Assembly: GCF_000016905.1 (NCBI RefSeq)
Contig: NC_009616.1
Location: 1,364,001 to 1,428,000 of the forward strand
Reading direction: 5' to 3'
DNA from: Thermosipho melanesiensis BI429
GTDB taxonomy: Bacteria > Thermotogota > Thermotogae > Thermotogales > Fervidobacteriaceae
Length of the DNA: 64,000 nucleotides
The notes beneath the pieces were generated by a model, which worked only from the letters and a program-made list of their open reading frames with translations, made no database searches and had not been told where the DNA came from. Both the position numbers and the translations under genes were made by a program. Positions 1,054-41,668 of the stretch are shown here, piece after piece. Within the stretch, counting starts at the first letter, position 1, and each line of letters opens with the position of its first letter.

Positions 1054-2418
1054 TCAAAAACCAAGTTTAGTTAGATTTTGGGGGGTTATTTTTTTCAATA
1101 ATTCTTCTTTAGGCAAGTTATTTTTCTGAGAAAGTATTTCAATTGCTTTGAATAAGTTATAATTTGCTTCTTTTATTGTATTTGATACTTCATCATAGCC
1201 AAATAGATTGATTAAGGGTGTAAGATTAGATATTGATTTTTCGAGATTTTCTTTACATTTTTCTTCATTTGCTTTTATTTTATCTATATAGCTTACTAAA
1301 GCTAAACAAGCGTTTTTTAGAAATTTTAGTGATTTTAGTGTATAATGAACTATAATTGGTGCAAACTGGTTTAGTTCAAGATTTCCTTGAGCACATGCGT
1401 GATTTATTAGACTATCGTGTGCAAAAACGACTAGAGAAAGTTGCATAGCGTATTCAGAAACTACTGGATTAATTTTTCCAGGCATAATGGAGCTTCCAAT
1501 TTGAACTGGAGGAATAATTAATTCTCCAATACCACTATTTGGGCCACTTGAAAGTAGTCTAATATCATTGGAGATTTTGTAAATGTTAACGGCTAAAGAT
1601 TTTAGGAGACCATGAACTTCAGAGAACACGTCCATATTTTGTGTGCAATCTATTAAATTATCTGCTTTTGCTATTTTTACTTTTGAAATCTCTCTTAATG
1701 TGTTTGTTATTTTAAGCACATATTCTTTTGGTGCACCAATTCCAGTTCCAATTGCCGTTCCTCCAATGTTTACATTTCTAATTCTTTCCTCTACTTTGTT
1801 TAGCCTCCATCTATCACGGGCAAGTGCATCGGCAAATGCACCGAATTCTTGTCCAAGCATTATTGGTGGGCCATCCATTAATTGTGTTCTTCCAACTTTT
1901 CTGATTCTATAGAATTCTTTTTCTTTTTGTTGTATGACATCTTGTAAGGTTATAACTTCACCAATAAGTTCTCTGAGCCTTACTATTGTGGCAATCTTGC
2001 CAGCAGTTGTGAATGTGTCGTTTGTTGATTGGTGTAAATTTACGTGTTCTATAGGTTTTACATAACCAAAATCTTTACCCAGTATTTGCGAAGCTCTGTT
2101 TGCGATGACTTCATTTATGTTCATGTTGACCGATGTTCCAGCTCCACCAGATAGTGGATCTACAATTATGTGTTTTTTTAACTCTTCCCATTCATCACAT
2201 GCTTGAATAATGGCATTACCAATTTCTTCATCAAGATATGAAAGTTCTTTATTTAATATTGCTGCAGATTTTTTTATTATGAAATATGCCCAGATGAATT
2301 TTTCATCAAATTTTTCATCTGTAGATGGGAATATCTGAGTTGCTCTTTTTGAAGAAATACCATACAAAGCATTATCTTCTATATCTACCTCTCCAAGGTA
2401 ATCTTTTTCTTTTCGCAT
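1054..2418 (-). CDS. aspA: Aspartate ammonia-lyase (aspartase), hydF-linked
   Basis: A 454-residue member of the aspartase/fumarase superfamily. Aspartase converts L-aspartate to fumarate and ammonia in the cytoplasm. Visible motifs are GGAGTSVNMNINEVIANRA at about 91-109, HQSTNDT at 129-135 and the superfamily signature GSSIMPGKINP at 308-318, which carries the catalytic-loop serine. The STND form, rather than SSND, favours aspartase over fumarase. Length is normal for the family. The start codon lies 4 bases after the hydF stop, so the two are surely co-transcribed. Aspartase genes beside hydrogenase-maturation genes are known in several anaerobes, and an ammonia-supply role is plausible but inferred. 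Confidence 0.85.
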   Translation of the reverse strand: MRKEKDYLGEVDIEDNALYGISSKRATQIFPSTDEKFDEKFIWAYFIIKKSAAILNKELSYLDEEIGNAIIQACDEWEELKKHIIVDPLSGGAGTSVNMNINEVIANRASQILGKDFGYVKPIEHVNLHQSTNDTFTTAGKIATIVRLRELIGEVITLQDVIQQKEKEFYRIRKVGRTQLMDGPPIMLGQEFGAFADALARDRWRLNKVEERIRNVNIGGTAIGTGIGAPKEYVLKITNTLREISKVKIAKADNLIDCTQNMDVFSEVHGLLKSLAVNIYKISNDIRLLSSGPNSGIGELIIPPVQIGSSIMPGKINPVVSEYAMQLSLVVFAHDSLINHACAQGNLELNQFAPIIVHYTLKSLKFLKNACLALVSYIDKIKANEEKCKENLEKSISNLTPLINLFGYDEVSNTIKEANYNLFKAIEILSQKNNLPKEELLKKITPQNLTKLGF

Positions 2419-2422
2419 TTTA

Positions 2423-3652
<1,230 letters not shown>

Positions 3653-3656
3653 TTAT

Positions 3657-3685
3657 ATTATATCAAAAAACAAAGAGTAAGTAAA
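3657..3685 (-). promoter_or_regulatory. hydF operon promoter
   Basis: On the minus strand TATAAT (3657-3662) is preceded by TGA, forming an extended -10. A TTTACT -35 candidate lies at 3680-3685 with a 17-base spacer. A second overlapping TATAAT at 3652-3657 could also serve. The hydF start is about 45 bases downstream. Confidence 0.55.
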
Positions 3686-3690
3686 TTAGA

Positions 3691-3719
3691 TAGAACTAAT
3701 TTATTCGTTGTGATATAAT
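3691..3719 (+). promoter_or_regulatory. Promoter for the 3754-18705 gene series
   Basis: TGATATAAT at 3711-3719 is an extended -10 element. The -35 position (TAGAAC, 3691-3696, 17-base spacer) is a poor match. It is divergent from the hydF promoter within a 140-base gap, and the first gene has an AGGAGG ribosome site. Confidence 0.6.
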
Positions 3720-3753
3720 TATAAGGGTAAAAAGTATTATAGGAGGTTAATTT

Positions 3754-4380
3754 ATGGAGAGGGAAGAATTAATAAAAAGGATTATAGATGAGAAAGGTGA
3801 AAAAGCTGTTGATGATTTAATCAAACTTTTAGATGACGAAGATACTCAGATAAAAGAAATAGTATCTGAAGCATTGTTTAAGTTGGGAGAATATTCAAGG
3901 GGAAAATTAGTTAAAGAGTTTAAAAGAAGACTTTCAAATGGTAAAAAGAATGATATTACCTTGCTTTATATTATAGATCTTTTATCAGATTTGGGTGAGA
4001 AAAGTATTGTGAAAGATTTGTATAGTACGTTATCGTTGTACAGCTTTGAAGAGGCAGAACTAATAATTTATGAAGCGTTGGCAAAGTTAGGGGAAGGTGA
4101 AAAGGTTTACGATATTCTTAAGTATTTTTTGATAGAGGATGCTGAAAAGAAAAAGTTTGGGGTGCAAGCAGCAATTGCACTATCATATATTGATAAACCA
4201 GAAGTTGTTGATGATTTAGTAAAGGCAATAGATAGTGGGGATTATTCTGGAGAGGATTTGGATGTATTGAAAAAAGCGTTATCAAATGTTGTAATGGGTA
4301 ATTCAATTTACTATGGGATTTTAAAAAAATTGGTGGGAGAAGATGTAGAAAAATATTTGGGGGACGAATATGATATTTGA
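3754..4380 (+). CDS. HEAT-repeat-like helical protein
   Basis: A 208-residue acidic protein with no signal peptide or membrane segment. It reads as a series of paired amphipathic helices, with repeats such as AVDDLIKLLDDEDTQIKEIV and ALSYIDKPEVVDDLVKAI. This is the pattern of HEAT or PBS-lyase-type repeats used as protein-binding scaffolds. No catalytic motif is visible. The start is set by AGGAGG 7 bases upstream of ATG. It is the first gene after the promoter at 3711-3719, and its 3' end overlaps the polyprenyl synthase start by 11 bases. The specific partner is unknown. Confidence 0.7.
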   Translation: MEREELIKRIIDEKGEKAVDDLIKLLDDEDTQIKEIVSEALFKLGEYSRGKLVKEFKRRLSNGKKNDITLLYIIDLLSDLGEKSIVKDLYSTLSLYSFEEAELIIYEALAKLGEGEKVYDILKYFLIEDAEKKKFGVQAAIALSYIDKPEVVDDLVKAIDSGDYSGEDLDVLKKALSNVVMGNSIYYGILKKLVGEDVEKYLGDEYDI

Positions 4381-5368
4381 AGAATTTAGGATAAAACATG
4401 TAAAAAAAATTGATGAAGCTATTGGAAAAGTAATTGACGAAAATAGTTTAAACAGTCCAGTAGGAAATTTGGTAGAAGAATTAAAGAAATTTTGTTTAAG
4501 GCCTGGAAAAAGAATTCGACCTTTATTGTTTATTTTAGGGGTAGAGGGATTTGGAGGAAAGGTTGATGAAACAGTATACAAGATTGCCGCAACTATTGAA
4601 ATAATGCATTCTTTTTTGTTGATTCATGATGATATAATGGACCAATCGGAGTTAAGAAGAGGACAACCGTCTATGCATAATTTGCTAGCAAATAAATTCA
4701 AGGATAGGAGTTTTAACCCGAAAATTGGTGAGGATTTGGCTTTAGTACTAGGTGATATATTATTTTTTATTGGTTTAAGGGTTTTAAGTAGGTTAAATAT
4801 ACCTTACTTTTTTTTGGAAAAGTTTTCTGAGTGTTATATTAATACAGGATATGGCCAGATTTTGGATGTGATTTATTCTATGAATAGAAATTATGTGAGA
4901 AGTGAAAAAATATCTTTAGAAATTTCTAAACTGAAAACAGCATATTATACGTTTTTTTATCCATTTTATCTGGGAACGGTTTTTACGGGTGGAAATGTTG
5001 GTAGGAAATTAATTGAAGATATTATGATTCCTGCGGGGATTGCTTTTCAAATTAGAGATGATATTATTAGTACCTTTGATGAAAAATCGGGAAAATCAAA
5101 TCTTTCAGATATTTTGGAAGGTAAAGTAACGGCTTTGATAGATTTTGGGGAATATGACGAAAAATTCTTTGAGATTTATTTTAAGCCTGAAAAAACAATT
5201 GAAGAGATAAATTATATAATTGAATGTATGAAAAAAAGTGGAGCAATTGAAAGTGCGAAAAAAGTTATGGAAGAATTAATAAAAAAAGCATTTAAAAATT
5301 TGGAAAAAATTAACTTTGAAAGGAAGGATGTATTAAAAGACTTAATAGACAGATTAAGGAGAGATTAG
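4370..5368 (+). CDS. Polyprenyl diphosphate synthase family protein
   Basis: This family condenses isopentenyl diphosphate onto allylic diphosphates to build isoprenoid chains. The first aspartate-rich motif is intact (HDDIMDQSELRRGQPSMH, about residues 85-102), as is the N-terminal GKRIRP. The second motif, normally DDxxD, reads DDIIS, so its last acidic residue is missing, although FQIRDD and a downstream GK are present. At 332 residues the length is normal. The product chain length cannot be told from sequence. It overlaps the preceding HEAT-repeat gene and is followed after 1 base by a membrane hydrolase-like gene. Confidence 0.8.
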   Translation: MIFEEFRIKHVKKIDEAIGKVIDENSLNSPVGNLVEELKKFCLRPGKRIRPLLFILGVEGFGGKVDETVYKIAATIEIMHSFLLIHDDIMDQSELRRGQPSMHNLLANKFKDRSFNPKIGEDLALVLGDILFFIGLRVLSRLNIPYFFLEKFSECYINTGYGQILDVIYSMNRNYVRSEKISLEISKLKTAYYTFFYPFYLGTVFTGGNVGRKLIEDIMIPAGIAFQIRDDIISTFDEKSGKSNLSDILEGKVTALIDFGEYDEKFFEIYFKPEKTIEEINYIIECMKKSGAIESAKKVMEELIKKAFKNLEKINFERKDVLKDLIDRLRRD

Positions 5369-38368: not shown

Positions 38369-38992
38369 TCACTCCACCAATATTTCAATTTGGACATTTT
38401 CGCCTTTCATATTATTAGTTTCTGTGAAAATAATAATTTTTTTGGCGAGAAGTTTTATTTTTTTATCATCATCTTTTAAATCAACATTTTTTTCCAATAT
38501 TATTTCACCTTTAGCTCTATTATAGTTAAATTTAAAGGCTTTTGCAATAATACTTCCTTTTATAATTGTTATTTTTTTGTCTTTTCCTGTTCCTTCAAAA
38601 GTCTTGTCTTTAAGGTCGAAATTTAGATTTTCACATTTTATGTATATGGTTTCAGAACTTTTTGAATCATGGATTGTAAGAGATGCATTTTTAAGTATTC
38701 CACTTTGGACTTCTATGTTGTATTCTAGATTATCACCTTCAATAATACCATTTTCAAATATTATTTTTACGTTATCTTCAGTTGTCAGTGAGTTCCATTT
38801 ATTATTTGTTTTTTCTATGACCATTTTGTTAGTGTAAAGTTTTAAATTGTCCTCATCAATTTTTAATACGATGTTTCCTTCGTATTTTATCTTGTAATCT
38901 GTTGGTTCAATGTAATCAGAAGATACGTGTATAGTTTTTGAAAACATCAAAAGAGAAAGTGTTAAAAAGAAAATTAGTAGAATTTTTTTCAT
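38369..38992 (-). CDS. LptA/OstA-like exported protein
   Basis: A 207-residue protein with a signal peptide (MKKILLIFFLTLSLLMFSKT). The rest is repeated short beta strands with the OstA/LptA-like pattern (ADxxxYxxxxxxxxxxGNVxI form: SDYIEPTDYKIKYEGNIVL, DNLEYNIEVQSGILKNASL, KGEIILEKNVDLKDD). LptA bridges the periplasm in LPS export. Thermotogales are not known for LPS, so an analogous lipid or envelope role is inferred. It overlaps the patatin-like gene by 4 bases and miaA follows after 3. Confidence 0.65.
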   Translation of the reverse strand: MKKILLIFFLTLSLLMFSKTIHVSSDYIEPTDYKIKYEGNIVLKIDEDNLKLYTNKMVIEKTNNKWNSLTTEDNVKIIFENGIIEGDNLEYNIEVQSGILKNASLTIHDSKSSETIYIKCENLNFDLKDKTFEGTGKDKKITIIKGSIIAKAFKFNYNRAKGEIILEKNVDLKDDDKKIKLLAKKIIIFTETNNMKGENVQIEILVE

Positions 38993-39720
38993 GAAAAGTT
39001 CCTCCTTAAGTATTCCTGCGATAATTTTAGTATTTCTGTTGAAATTTCAAATGGATTTTTTGAATTACTTTTGTATACAATTTTATATTTTGCCGAATTT
39101 ATTCTTTTTTTTGCAATTTCCTTTGTTCTTGTAATGGTTGAAATTATCATATAATCAATTGCATTTTTTAATTCTAAATTTATGTTGGAGTCTATGTAGA
39201 TTAGAAAATCTGCTTCGGGAATTCCATAAACCCAACTTCCAGAAATGTAATTTTCAGATGGACTGAATTCAATAGGAAATGACAAAGTTTTTATTAGTGC
39301 TTCTCTTAAATTACCTTTTAAAATTTCATCGTTAAAAGTTTTAATATTAAATGCGTGTATTTTCATTTTTTCTGGAATTTTTTCATCTGGGAAATATTTT
39401 GTTACAAAGTTTATCAATAATTTTTGTGATTTGAACCCCTCCATACTTTTTGTTGCTTTGTATAAGGTTTTAAGTTGTTCAACCATTCCAAATAAATTTA
39501 GTCCGTATTTAAAATGAAAAATTTTTTGTATTTCTGGATATATTTTTTTTGTTTGAATATATGCCATGTTACTTGAGTTCGTTTTCAAATAAAAATAAAG
39601 AGGGATACATGAAAAACCCGTGCAATGATATTCATTAAATATGTTATAGTTATTTGCTGCGTTAAAAAATGCGGGAATGGATAGGTACAATATAGAATCA
39701 CCACCAAAAGCGATGGTCAA
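38989..39720 (-). CDS. Degenerate patatin-like protein, likely non-catalytic
   Basis: A 243-residue protein whose start (MTIAFGGDSILYLSIPAFFN) and later FSPSENYISGSWVYGIP align by eye with the patatin gene just upstream. The GSSAG nucleophile elbow of that gene is replaced by GFSCI (35-39), so there is a serine but no normal elbow. The DGG aspartate motif is replaced by SGSWVYG. It is 20 residues shorter overall. I infer a tandem duplication with loss of hydrolase activity; function unknown. It overlaps patatin by 23 bases. Confidence 0.6.
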   Translation of the reverse strand: MTIAFGGDSILYLSIPAFFNAANNYNIFNEYHCTGFSCIPLYFYLKTNSSNMAYIQTKKIYPEIQKIFHFKYGLNLFGMVEQLKTLYKATKSMEGFKSQKLLINFVTKYFPDEKIPEKMKIHAFNIKTFNDEILKGNLREALIKTLSFPIEFSPSENYISGSWVYGIPEADFLIYIDSNINLELKNAIDYMIISTITRTKEIAKKRINSAKYKIVYKSNSKNPFEISTEILKLSQEYLRRNFS

Positions 39721-40492
39721 ATTCTTCTCTCCTCTCTTTTAAAAATTTTATTGAAGATTCATAAATTTCTTTATATAAATGAAATTGATACCAATGGTAG
39801 GGAATCCTATAATATATTACCACATTTGCTTTTTCTAAATCAACATACTCTATTTCAATTTCTTTCCAAGTGTCTATATAATACATTAATTCCAGTTGGT
39901 CTTTTGGGAATGTTTTTGGTTTTCTTTCAAAGGTACTAGCTATTACAAAATCAGCTCCGAGTTTTATGGCTTCATTTATTGGAGAGGGAGACAAAACTCC
40001 TCCGTCCGTATTTTGAGTTCCTGCAATCCATAAAGGTGAAAAGACTCCAGGCACAGATGAACTTGCCATTACTGCATCTACTAAAAATCCTTCGGTTATT
40101 AGTAAGGAGTTTCCGTCCAAAGTGTCAAATGTAACAATTCCAATTTTGTATTTTAAGTCACTAAATTTTTTTCTTTCAAATAAGTATTTAAAAAATTTGT
40201 AATACTCATCAATTGGAACTAACGCCCTTTGGAAGATGGACCATAGATTTGATTTTTCTAACTTTTCCGTGTAAATTTTTAGATTTGGGAAGAATTTTTC
40301 AACTGCATTTGAAAATTTTTTGTAGACTATTTTACTGTTGCCGTAGAGACCGTATAATGCAGCAACAATTGCTCCGGCAGAAGAACCGGTAATTATATCT
40401 ACTTTTATATTATTTTCTTCTAAAAAATTTAAAGTTGCAATATGTGAGAATCCCTTTACCCCACCTGCAGCAAGTGATAGACCTATTGTCAT
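39698..40492 (-). CDS. Patatin-like phospholipase family protein
   Basis: A 264-residue cytoplasmic patatin-family lipid acyl hydrolase. The glycine-rich oxyanion motif (AAGGVKG, 8-14), GSSAG nucleophile elbow (36-40, Ser 38) and DGG (163-165) give a complete Ser-Asp dyad. It is like the RssA/YchK group in size. The substrate is unknown. It overlaps nfo by 4 bases and the degenerate copy by 23 bases. Confidence 0.88.
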   Translation of the reverse strand: MTIGLSLAAGGVKGFSHIATLNFLEENNIKVDIITGSSAGAIVAALYGLYGNSKIVYKKFSNAVEKFFPNLKIYTEKLEKSNLWSIFQRALVPIDEYYKFFKYLFERKKFSDLKYKIGIVTFDTLDGNSLLITEGFLVDAVMASSSVPGVFSPLWIAGTQNTDGGVLSPSPINEAIKLGADFVIASTFERKPKTFPKDQLELMYYIDTWKEIEIEYVDLEKANVVIYYRIPYHWYQFHLYKEIYESSIKFLKERREEFDHRFWW

Positions 40493-41340
40493 TGTTTCAC
40501 TCCTAAGATGTTAAATACCTCTTTAATATCATTTTTATGTACCTCATTATCTCCTGGGGTTTCTAAAATCCATGGGATTTTTTGGATAGTTTCATTTGTT
40601 AAGAATGTTTTTAAACCTTTAACTCCTATTTTTCCTTTTCCTATATTTTCATGTCTATCTTTATTTGAACCCAGTTCATTTTTTGAATCATTCAGATGAA
40701 TGAATTTTAACTTTTCAAGTGAAAATAATTTGTCAATCATTTTGAGAAATTTATCCAGCTTTTCTTTATTGGTTATATCATATCCTGCATCAAATGCATG
40801 GCAAGTATCTATTGTTATTCCTATCCTTTCTGGATATTTTACCATTTCTATTATCATTTTTAATTCTTCTAAGGTTGAACCGATGTTTCCACCTTTTTTT
40901 GTTACGTTTTCCAAGAGAATAAAGGTTTCTTTTTCTTTTTCCATAGCAATATTTAGAGCTTTTACTATCTGATTTATTCCCTTTTCCACGCCACTGTTTA
41001 AATGGCTTCCAGGGTGTATATTTAAATATCTTATTCCCAATGTTTTGCAGATATTCATTTCAAGAATTAGAAGTTCAAGCGATTTTTGCCAGATTTCTTC
41101 TTTGGGACTTGCTATGTTTATAAGATAGCCGCTGTGACAGAGCATAGAGTCTTCTGTTAAATTATATTCTTTTACCCTTTTTTTGAATATTTCCACATCA
41201 TCATCTTTTGGAAGTTTTGCCTTCCATTGTCTTGGATTATGTGGAAAAATTTGAAAAGCATTCCCGCCAATTTCGTGTGTTTCTTTTGGTACTCTTTTAA
41301 AACCTCCACTAATTGGCATGTGGGCTCCTATTTTAATCAT
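40489..41340 (-). CDS. nfo: Endonuclease IV (AP endonuclease)
   Basis: Cuts DNA at abasic sites. The 283-residue TIM barrel has the zinc-ligand motifs HSGYLIN, NIHPGSH, LENVTKKG, TIDTCHAFDAGYD and IHLNDSKNELGSNKDRHENIG. All are in family order and the length is typical. It overlaps DUF1622 by 8 bases. Confidence 0.96.
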   Translation of the reverse strand: MIKIGAHMPISGGFKRVPKETHEIGGNAFQIFPHNPRQWKAKLPKDDDVEIFKKRVKEYNLTEDSMLCHSGYLINIASPKEEIWQKSLELLILEMNICKTLGIRYLNIHPGSHLNSGVEKGINQIVKALNIAMEKEKETFILLENVTKKGGNIGSTLEELKMIIEMVKYPERIGITIDTCHAFDAGYDITNKEKLDKFLKMIDKLFSLEKLKFIHLNDSKNELGSNKDRHENIGKGKIGVKGLKTFLTNETIQKIPWILETPGDNEVHKNDIKEVFNILGVKQ

Positions 41341-41668
41341 TATTGTTCATCTCCTTTATGTCCTTTCTTAAGAAGTAATTCAGAAGTGTTCTAATTCCAA
41401 TAATTGCAGCAAGCTGGCCTATATCATTCCAACTAGGAGCAATGGTGGTTTTTAGAATACTCGATCCAATTAGTATACCTAATCCCAAAGAAAAGGAATG
41501 ACCAATCTCTAATCTGCTTTCTTTAATTGCTTCATTGGATTCCTTTTTTAATAGTGCATCTTTTATGAAAATGACAAATGCTTTTATTATTCCAGATGTA
41601 ATAACTATAGTAGCAAGTACTTGGAAAAATGCGCCAAAATATCCTACTATTTCTTCTTGGAAGATCAT
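41333..41668 (-). CDS. DUF1622-type membrane protein
   Basis: A 111-residue protein with three hydrophobic segments and the conserved middle R-LEIGHSFSLGLGILIGSSIL-TTIAPSW-DI pattern of DUF1622 proteins. Function is unknown. It is 4 bases after nadE and overlaps nfo. Confidence 0.85.
   Translation of the reverse strand: MIFQEEIVGYFGAFFQVLATIVITSGIIKAFVIFIKDALLKKESNEAIKESRLEIGHSFSLGLGILIGSSILKTTIAPSWNDIGQLAAIIGIRTLLNYFLRKDIKEMNNND

Follow-up and report, generated by a model that had tools for sequence, protein, structure and literature searches.

A conserved pair of a predicted patatin phospholipase and a patatin-like pseudoenzyme in the Thermotogota

Results

Two overlapping genes and their neighbor

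The window that we analyzed is a stretch of 64,000 nucleotides from Thermosipho melanesiensis BI429 (NC_009616.1, positions 1,364,001 to 1,428,000), whose genome has 1,915,238 bp (1.9 Mb). By "the family" we mean the one that contains Thermosipho and Fervidobacterium. The features at the locus, in coordinates of the window, are as follows.

39698..40492, minus strand: gene A, a single-domain patatin-like phospholipase of 264 amino acids (PF01734, 125 bits)
40373..40387, minus strand: nucleophile elbow of A, GSSAG (from the sequence; kept in 78 of 78 paired A proteins)
39998..40006, minus strand: DGG motif of A with the putative catalytic Asp (from the sequence; Asp kept in 78 of 78 paired A proteins)
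38989..39720, minus strand: gene B, a predicted patatin-fold pseudoenzyme of 243 amino acids, with a TTG start within the 3' end of A (from AlphaFold, structural neighbors, and hhalign)
39698..39720, minus strand: overlap of A and B, 23 bp (from the coordinates of the open reading frames)
39601..39618, minus strand: degenerate elbow of B, GFSCIP, with the Ser kept and the second Gly replaced by Ile, followed by Pro (second Gly gone in 81 of 81 B proteins)
39217..39243, minus strand: SGSWVYGIP of B, which replaces the DGG region and ends in a B-specific Pro (Asp absent from 80 of 81; placed by an hhalign column match)
39094..39162, minus strand: long C-terminal helix of B with R198 at 39127-39129 (Arg in 77 of 81; predicted secondary structure)
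38369..38992, minus strand: LptA/OstA-like gene right downstream of B (Pfam LptD_N, 31.1 bits; the cut-off is 20.4)

The initial annotation had described two open reading frames here with a 23-base overlap, and both the frames and the overlap are as it described them. The overlap is consistent with translational coupling. A good Shine-Dalgarno stretch (GAGAGGAG) lies ahead of the TTG start of B (39720), while the siblings of B start with an ATG that is six codons upstream of this TTG. The start of the LptA-like gene overlaps the end of B by 4 bp. Across the 78 adjacent A/B pairs that we found in the phylum, the two genes overlap or are separated by at most 50 bp in every case (78 of 78), and the most common spacing is the -4 (ATGA) overlap, with 31 of 78. 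In a Thermotoga-like genus (g13; L027, L029, and L030), there is no in-frame ATG, GTG, or TTG before the conserved N-terminus of B, and the likeliest start codon of these genes is CTG.

A is an intact patatin

A matches the Pfam model PF01734 with 125.2 bits (the curated cut-off is 27.7) and is the only patatin in the genome according to this model. Among proteins with solved structures, its best sequence match is PlpD (E = 1.6e-53 for the profile of A), and its AlphaFold model has a pLDDT of 89. No signal peptide is evident. The GxSxG and DG[GA] motifs are retained in all 78 paired A proteins, and the A of the window also has the oxyanion GG; judging from these motifs, A is predicted to be a catalytic patatin with an intact Ser-Asp dyad. 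It scores below the thresholds of the equivalog models for CapV from CBASS (NF041079; 42.5 bits, threshold 200) and for RssA (NF007623; 85.6 bits, threshold 272). With 264 amino acids, it ends after the patatin domain and has no C-terminal Omp85-type barrel, so it is not a PlpD-like (type Vd) autotransporter.

B has a predicted patatin fold without the catalytic site

BLASTP gives only a marginal similarity between A and B (E = 6e-4). Comparing profiles with hhalign gives a probability of 97.5% (E = 8.9e-12) if each profile is built from 29 relatives and 99.6% (E = 3.8e-24, 248 columns) if the profiles are built from diverse sets across the phylum. The initial annotation had taken the downstream gene to be a homolog of the upstream gene, and although BLASTP alone is weak evidence for this, the profile-profile alignment spans the whole length. 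Neither Pfam nor NCBIfam has a model of B, and the B of the window has no family match in either; Pfam's Patatin model weakly picks up 9 of 29 B proteins (best E = 0.00024).

The AlphaFold model of B, which was built from its own alignment, has a mean pLDDT of 89.4 and a pTM of 0.88. Its top neighbor in the PDB is PlpD (VIA Z = 21.2, rmsd 3.0 over 217 residues), other neighbors are CapE, CapV, and potato patatin (Z = 17.3), and the next fold class after the patatins has Z below 7. According to the model, then, B should have a complete patatin fold. The initial annotation had allowed for the second gene having another fold, which the neighbors of the AlphaFold model and the profile homology rule out as far as a model can. 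Both proteins resemble the single-domain bacterial patatins (RssA/YlbK-like proteins and the patatin domain of PlpD), A in its fold, oxyanion GG, GxSxG, and DGG, and B in its fold (by model and profile); unlike them, B has neither the second glycine of the elbow nor the Asp.

The initial annotation reported GFSCI in place of GSSAG and SGSWVYG in place of the DGG region, as we also find in the B of the window, and concluded that the active site was destroyed. As regards catalysis, this holds. In the column match between A and B, the catalytic Asp falls on S160 of the window's B. None of the 81 B proteins from the phylum has the second elbow glycine, and 80 lack the Asp; the one B with the Asp (L035) has Gly instead of Ser, and Ser and Asp never occur together. 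B has neither the GxSxG elbow nor the DG[GA] Asp of a catalytically active patatin. "Destroyed" goes too far for the nucleophile itself: the Ser survives in 39 of the 81 proteins, including the window's, and is otherwise Ala (16), Gly (15), Thr (7), Pro (2), or Phe (2). In the models, a helix starts at G35, ahead of the Ser position, in B and just past the Ser in A, and B seems to have lost the tight nucleophile elbow.

B has conserved residues of its own: G35 (74/81), P149 (75/81), P168 (76/81), and R198, which is the most conserved (77/81). Alignment A1 comprises 29 B proteins (from f1, f3, and f9), and C33, G35, and S37 are invariant in all of them, as is the longer pattern Cys-x-Gly-x-Ser-x-x-Pro (39601-39624 in the window); it is unlikely to be catalytic. 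We considered a salt bridge between R198 of B and D205 of A and dropped it, as unpaired patatins often have the same residue as A at this position and there is no obvious covariation.

A and B are found together across the phylum

A single-sequence search finds B in 29 of 103 genomes of Thermotogota, while successively broader profiles, together with reading of the loci, find it in 77. Very diverged B proteins that single-sequence searches missed include L032, L033, and L035 from f11 and L057, L064, L073, L084, and L091 from f7, and in some of these the Ser is replaced by Gly. Similar diverged partners may be annotated as "hypothetical protein" in other genomes.

Adjacent pairs, with B right behind A, occur at 78 loci among the 103 genomes. 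By genome, 74 have both genes, none has A alone, 3 have B alone, and 26 have neither, where the A-type patatins are counted without secreted and large forms and the three genomes with B alone are drafts of 87-92% completeness. Fisher's test for co-occurrence gives 2e-21; this ignores phylogeny, but the losses are spread over several separate groups. Every f2 genome is among those with neither gene, as are several Mesotoga-like genomes, in which both were lost. In one Mesotoga-like genome (G048, locus L120), A is in three fragments and B is truncated and open for 193 codons, which is a joint decay of the pair.

A and B are at separate loci in f8 and in genera g10, g11, and g14 of f3. There, B is far from any patatin, and it is found either beside a ddl-like gene (L037, L039, L049, and L111-L113; we identified ddl by eye from its sequence) or a short distance behind a rex-like gene (L114-L119). 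Most of these genomes have A elsewhere. Since B is kept in trans where the operon has been split, linkage alone does not explain the co-occurrence.

A scan of contigs with A found 14 loci in Thermotogota, with B adjoining in 12 of them, and 66 patatin loci outside the phylum, with B next door in none. We also searched with the profile of B in about 660 genomes from outside the phylum (398 from the phylum of a Clostridia MAG, 251 from the phylum of an Anaerolineae MAG, and 12 mixed genomes) and found no B among these. The matches were weak, at 58 bits or less, and those that we inspected (L212-L226) are ordinary GxSxG patatins. The initial annotation had raised the concern that the inactive copy might be present only here, and it is found phylum-wide instead.

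One ancient origin is the simplest history

B is intact in all 20 genomes of the family, and its dN/dS between close relatives is 0.07-0.24, which is like that of A and similar to that of the downstream gene. The copies are free of stop codons, all have lost the second glycine, and all but one have lost the Asp. In a joint tree, B forms a single clade (support 100/100) apart from A and other patatins. Some branches are long; nevertheless, this clade favors one origin, and we rejected repeated independent deaths of patatin copies.

Separate trees of A and of B have two deep clades in common, and the subclades and most of the strongly supported splits match as well. Type I contains the lptA-linked pairs and others, and type II is the NGLAG/ITNG group. 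The patristic distances for A and B are correlated (Mantel r = 0.82, where the maximum across permutations was 0.20), and this is also true within type I (r = 0.83, maximum 0.30) and within type II (r = 0.92, maximum 0.49). Conflicts between strong splits are confined to f10, and B evolves faster than A by a factor of 1.55. In both trees, the f9 genomes G038 and G040 are nested inside f1, and such cross-family placements, common to both genes, imply that A and B are moved and duplicated together. The simplest reading is that B arose once, long ago, and that the pair was then duplicated, transferred, and lost as a unit. The initial annotation called B a stably kept inactive partner, and its phylum-wide presence, purifying selection, single origin, and coinheritance with A strongly support this.

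Some pairs lie among envelope genes

In a Thermotoga-like, a Petrotogaceae-like, and a Fervidobacterium-like genome, the gene order is SLH plus coiled-coil gene, A, B, and LptA/LptC-like gene, and the flanks beyond these four genes differ. These neighbors were identified with Pfam's SLH and LptD_N/LptC models, and the SLH match in L208 is just under the cut-off. The genes directly upstream of the pair are as follows.

L207 (Thermotoga-like), 2344-3582: SLH plus coiled-coil gene, OmpA-like tether (Pfam SLH)
L208 (Petrotogaceae-like), 2595-4646: SLH plus coiled-coil gene, OmpA-like tether (Pfam SLH)
L209 (Fervidobacterium-like), 2111-3394: SLH plus coiled-coil gene, OmpA-like tether (Pfam SLH)

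The upstream gene belongs to the OmpA (Omp-alpha) type of tether. Because ompA1 is located in secG-tyrS-ompA-ompB (PMC3387000), the gene beside the pair is probably of the ompA2 type, whose purpose the same paper calls unknown. The pair in the window has an endonuclease IV-like gene beside it and not the tether gene, while the LptA-like gene is present. Two genes upstream of A is a DUF1622 gene (41333-41668, 90.8 bits), which overlaps the endonuclease IV-like gene. The Fervidobacterium-like and Petrotogaceae-like relatives of the LptA-like gene also match the LptC model. The Thermotogae have been described as being without nearly all of the outer-membrane genes of a studied set (PMC8871954), and yet an LptD_N-like gene directly follows B. 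Type II pairs are without the OmpA/LptA context, and the link between the type I pair and the outer envelope is no more than an association.

Discussion

Our favored reading, to which we give a probability of about 0.58, is that A and B are an obligate pair of enzyme and pseudoenzyme that forms a heteromer through the surface that other patatins use to form homodimers, with B as the activating or positioning subunit. The initial annotation had suggested an active/inactive heterodimer or a lipid sensor, and of these we consider the heterodimer the likeliest mechanism. Both proteins would be indispensable to a single cytosolic phospholipase system, in which A supplies catalysis with its Ser-Asp dyad, and B, an ancient paralog that kept the patatin fold and lost catalysis, would be its non-catalytic partner. 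They would most likely pair through the patatin dimer surface with its C-terminal helix. B might order or position the mobile Asp segment of A, present membrane lipid to it, or both, much as prozyme-type dead paralogs act on their partners. In the type I branch, the system would remodel the glycerophospholipids of the envelope.

We infer a complex of A and B from their coinheritance, from the oligomers of other patatins, and from precedents in which activity requires a partner or dimerization; its geometry, a role of B in activating A instead of restraining it, and the lipid substrate are likewise proposals. PlpD forms a homodimer through its patatin domain, with M249 at the interface (PMC11116518). 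By our reading of the alignment via the profile of A, M249 falls on the C-terminal helix, close to M201 in A and M191 in B (the offset of 19 between the chain index and PlpD numbering was fixed by S60 and D207), and this is the helix that bears R198 in B. PNPLA9 is predominantly monomeric and inactive, and its Asp segment is thought to require stabilization by a partner or by dimerization (PMC12871566). Prozyme is a dead paralog that acts as an activator (PMC5201418), and A and B resemble such pairs in that they are conserved together and B is without catalytic residues.

Some of our results do not favor this reading. Coinheritance would also fit an inhibitor or antidote, or a shared pathway without contact. 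The lack of the OmpA/LptA context in type II and the faster evolution of B also count against it. And the genomes with B alone are what we would expect if B restrains A, although all three are incomplete drafts.

Restraint is the main rival, and we consider it unlikely but worth taking seriously. B would be an inhibitor, chaperone, or antidote that keeps a dangerous cytosolic phospholipase capped or sequestered until it is needed. This would explain why A is found without B in no genome while B is found without A in three, why A is in pieces in the decayed locus L120 while B is still open for 193 codons, and why the tightly coupled genes are in the order A and then B. There is also a precedent: the patatin ExoU is held inactive by SpcU, which is encoded beside it (PMC12871566). 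SpcU is an unrelated small chaperone rather than a paralog. Against restraint, a full and deeply conserved patatin fold is more than a cap needs, and B is in trans in four groups of genus level or higher, whereas antidotes usually keep stoichiometric coupling.

It is less probable still that B binds or senses lipid on its own, as a member of the same pathway that never touches A. The two genes are separable in genomes (L037/L044, L113/L053, and L117/L089), and B retains a fold that binds lipid in the active members. However, the strict co-occurrence, the matched trees, and the repeated duplication of the pair exceed the usual signal of a shared pathway. We think it very improbable that B is an enzyme with a non-canonical site, using the Ser of type I and the conserved Cys four residues before it. 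Such a site might account for the invariant C33, G35, and S37, but the nucleophile column varies, the one B with an Asp has Gly for its Ser, and the elbow glycine is never present. Finally, despite the lost catalytic residues, the absence of stops, the phylum-wide presence, and a dN/dS of about 0.1 refute the idea that B is a decaying duplicate, and they rule out a pseudogene or a chance open reading frame as well.

If we return to the reading of an obligate pair, a broader version of it is tentative and, to our minds, just short of an even bet. To be active, the patatin would need a dedicated dead patatin with which it forms a heteromer, the pairing would have arisen once before the radiation of the Thermotogota and been duplicated as a pair, and one branch would serve lipid homeostasis in the outer membrane of the toga, together with the OmpA-like tether and an LptA-like bridge.

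Among the closest analogs of the pair that we know of are the prozyme of trypanosomatid AdoMetDC and the dead paralog of deoxyhypusine synthase, which also combine an active enzyme with a dead paralog that is conserved with it (PMC5201418, PMC3663545). Those systems are eukaryotic, with another fold and another pathway, and they have been shown to form complexes with activation, which we only propose for A and B; on the other hand, A and B are found across a phylum and usually in one operon. The PlpD homodimer (PMC11116518) and the oligomers of CapV and CapE show that patatin domains associate, and no solved structure matches B better than that of PlpD. Unlike A and B, these are homo-oligomers of active chains, and neither the Omp85 barrel of PlpD nor the CBASS loci of CapV and CapE are found at the A/B locus. 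We found no description in the open literature of a bacterial patatin that has an inactive paralog as its dedicated partner. Pseudoenzyme partners have been described in several families of enzymes. So dead paralogs that regulate enzymes are already known (prozyme; PMC5201418), while the case of a bacterial patatin is new as far as we searched.

As a genomic fact, the pair is well supported, and its mechanism is our inference. Whether and how partners control the activity of patatins is an open question that is relevant to the PNPLA enzymes too, and the dozens of diverged, thermostable A/B couples are a natural system in which to test it. The pair also offers a handle on how lipids are handled in the little-known envelope of the Thermotogota.
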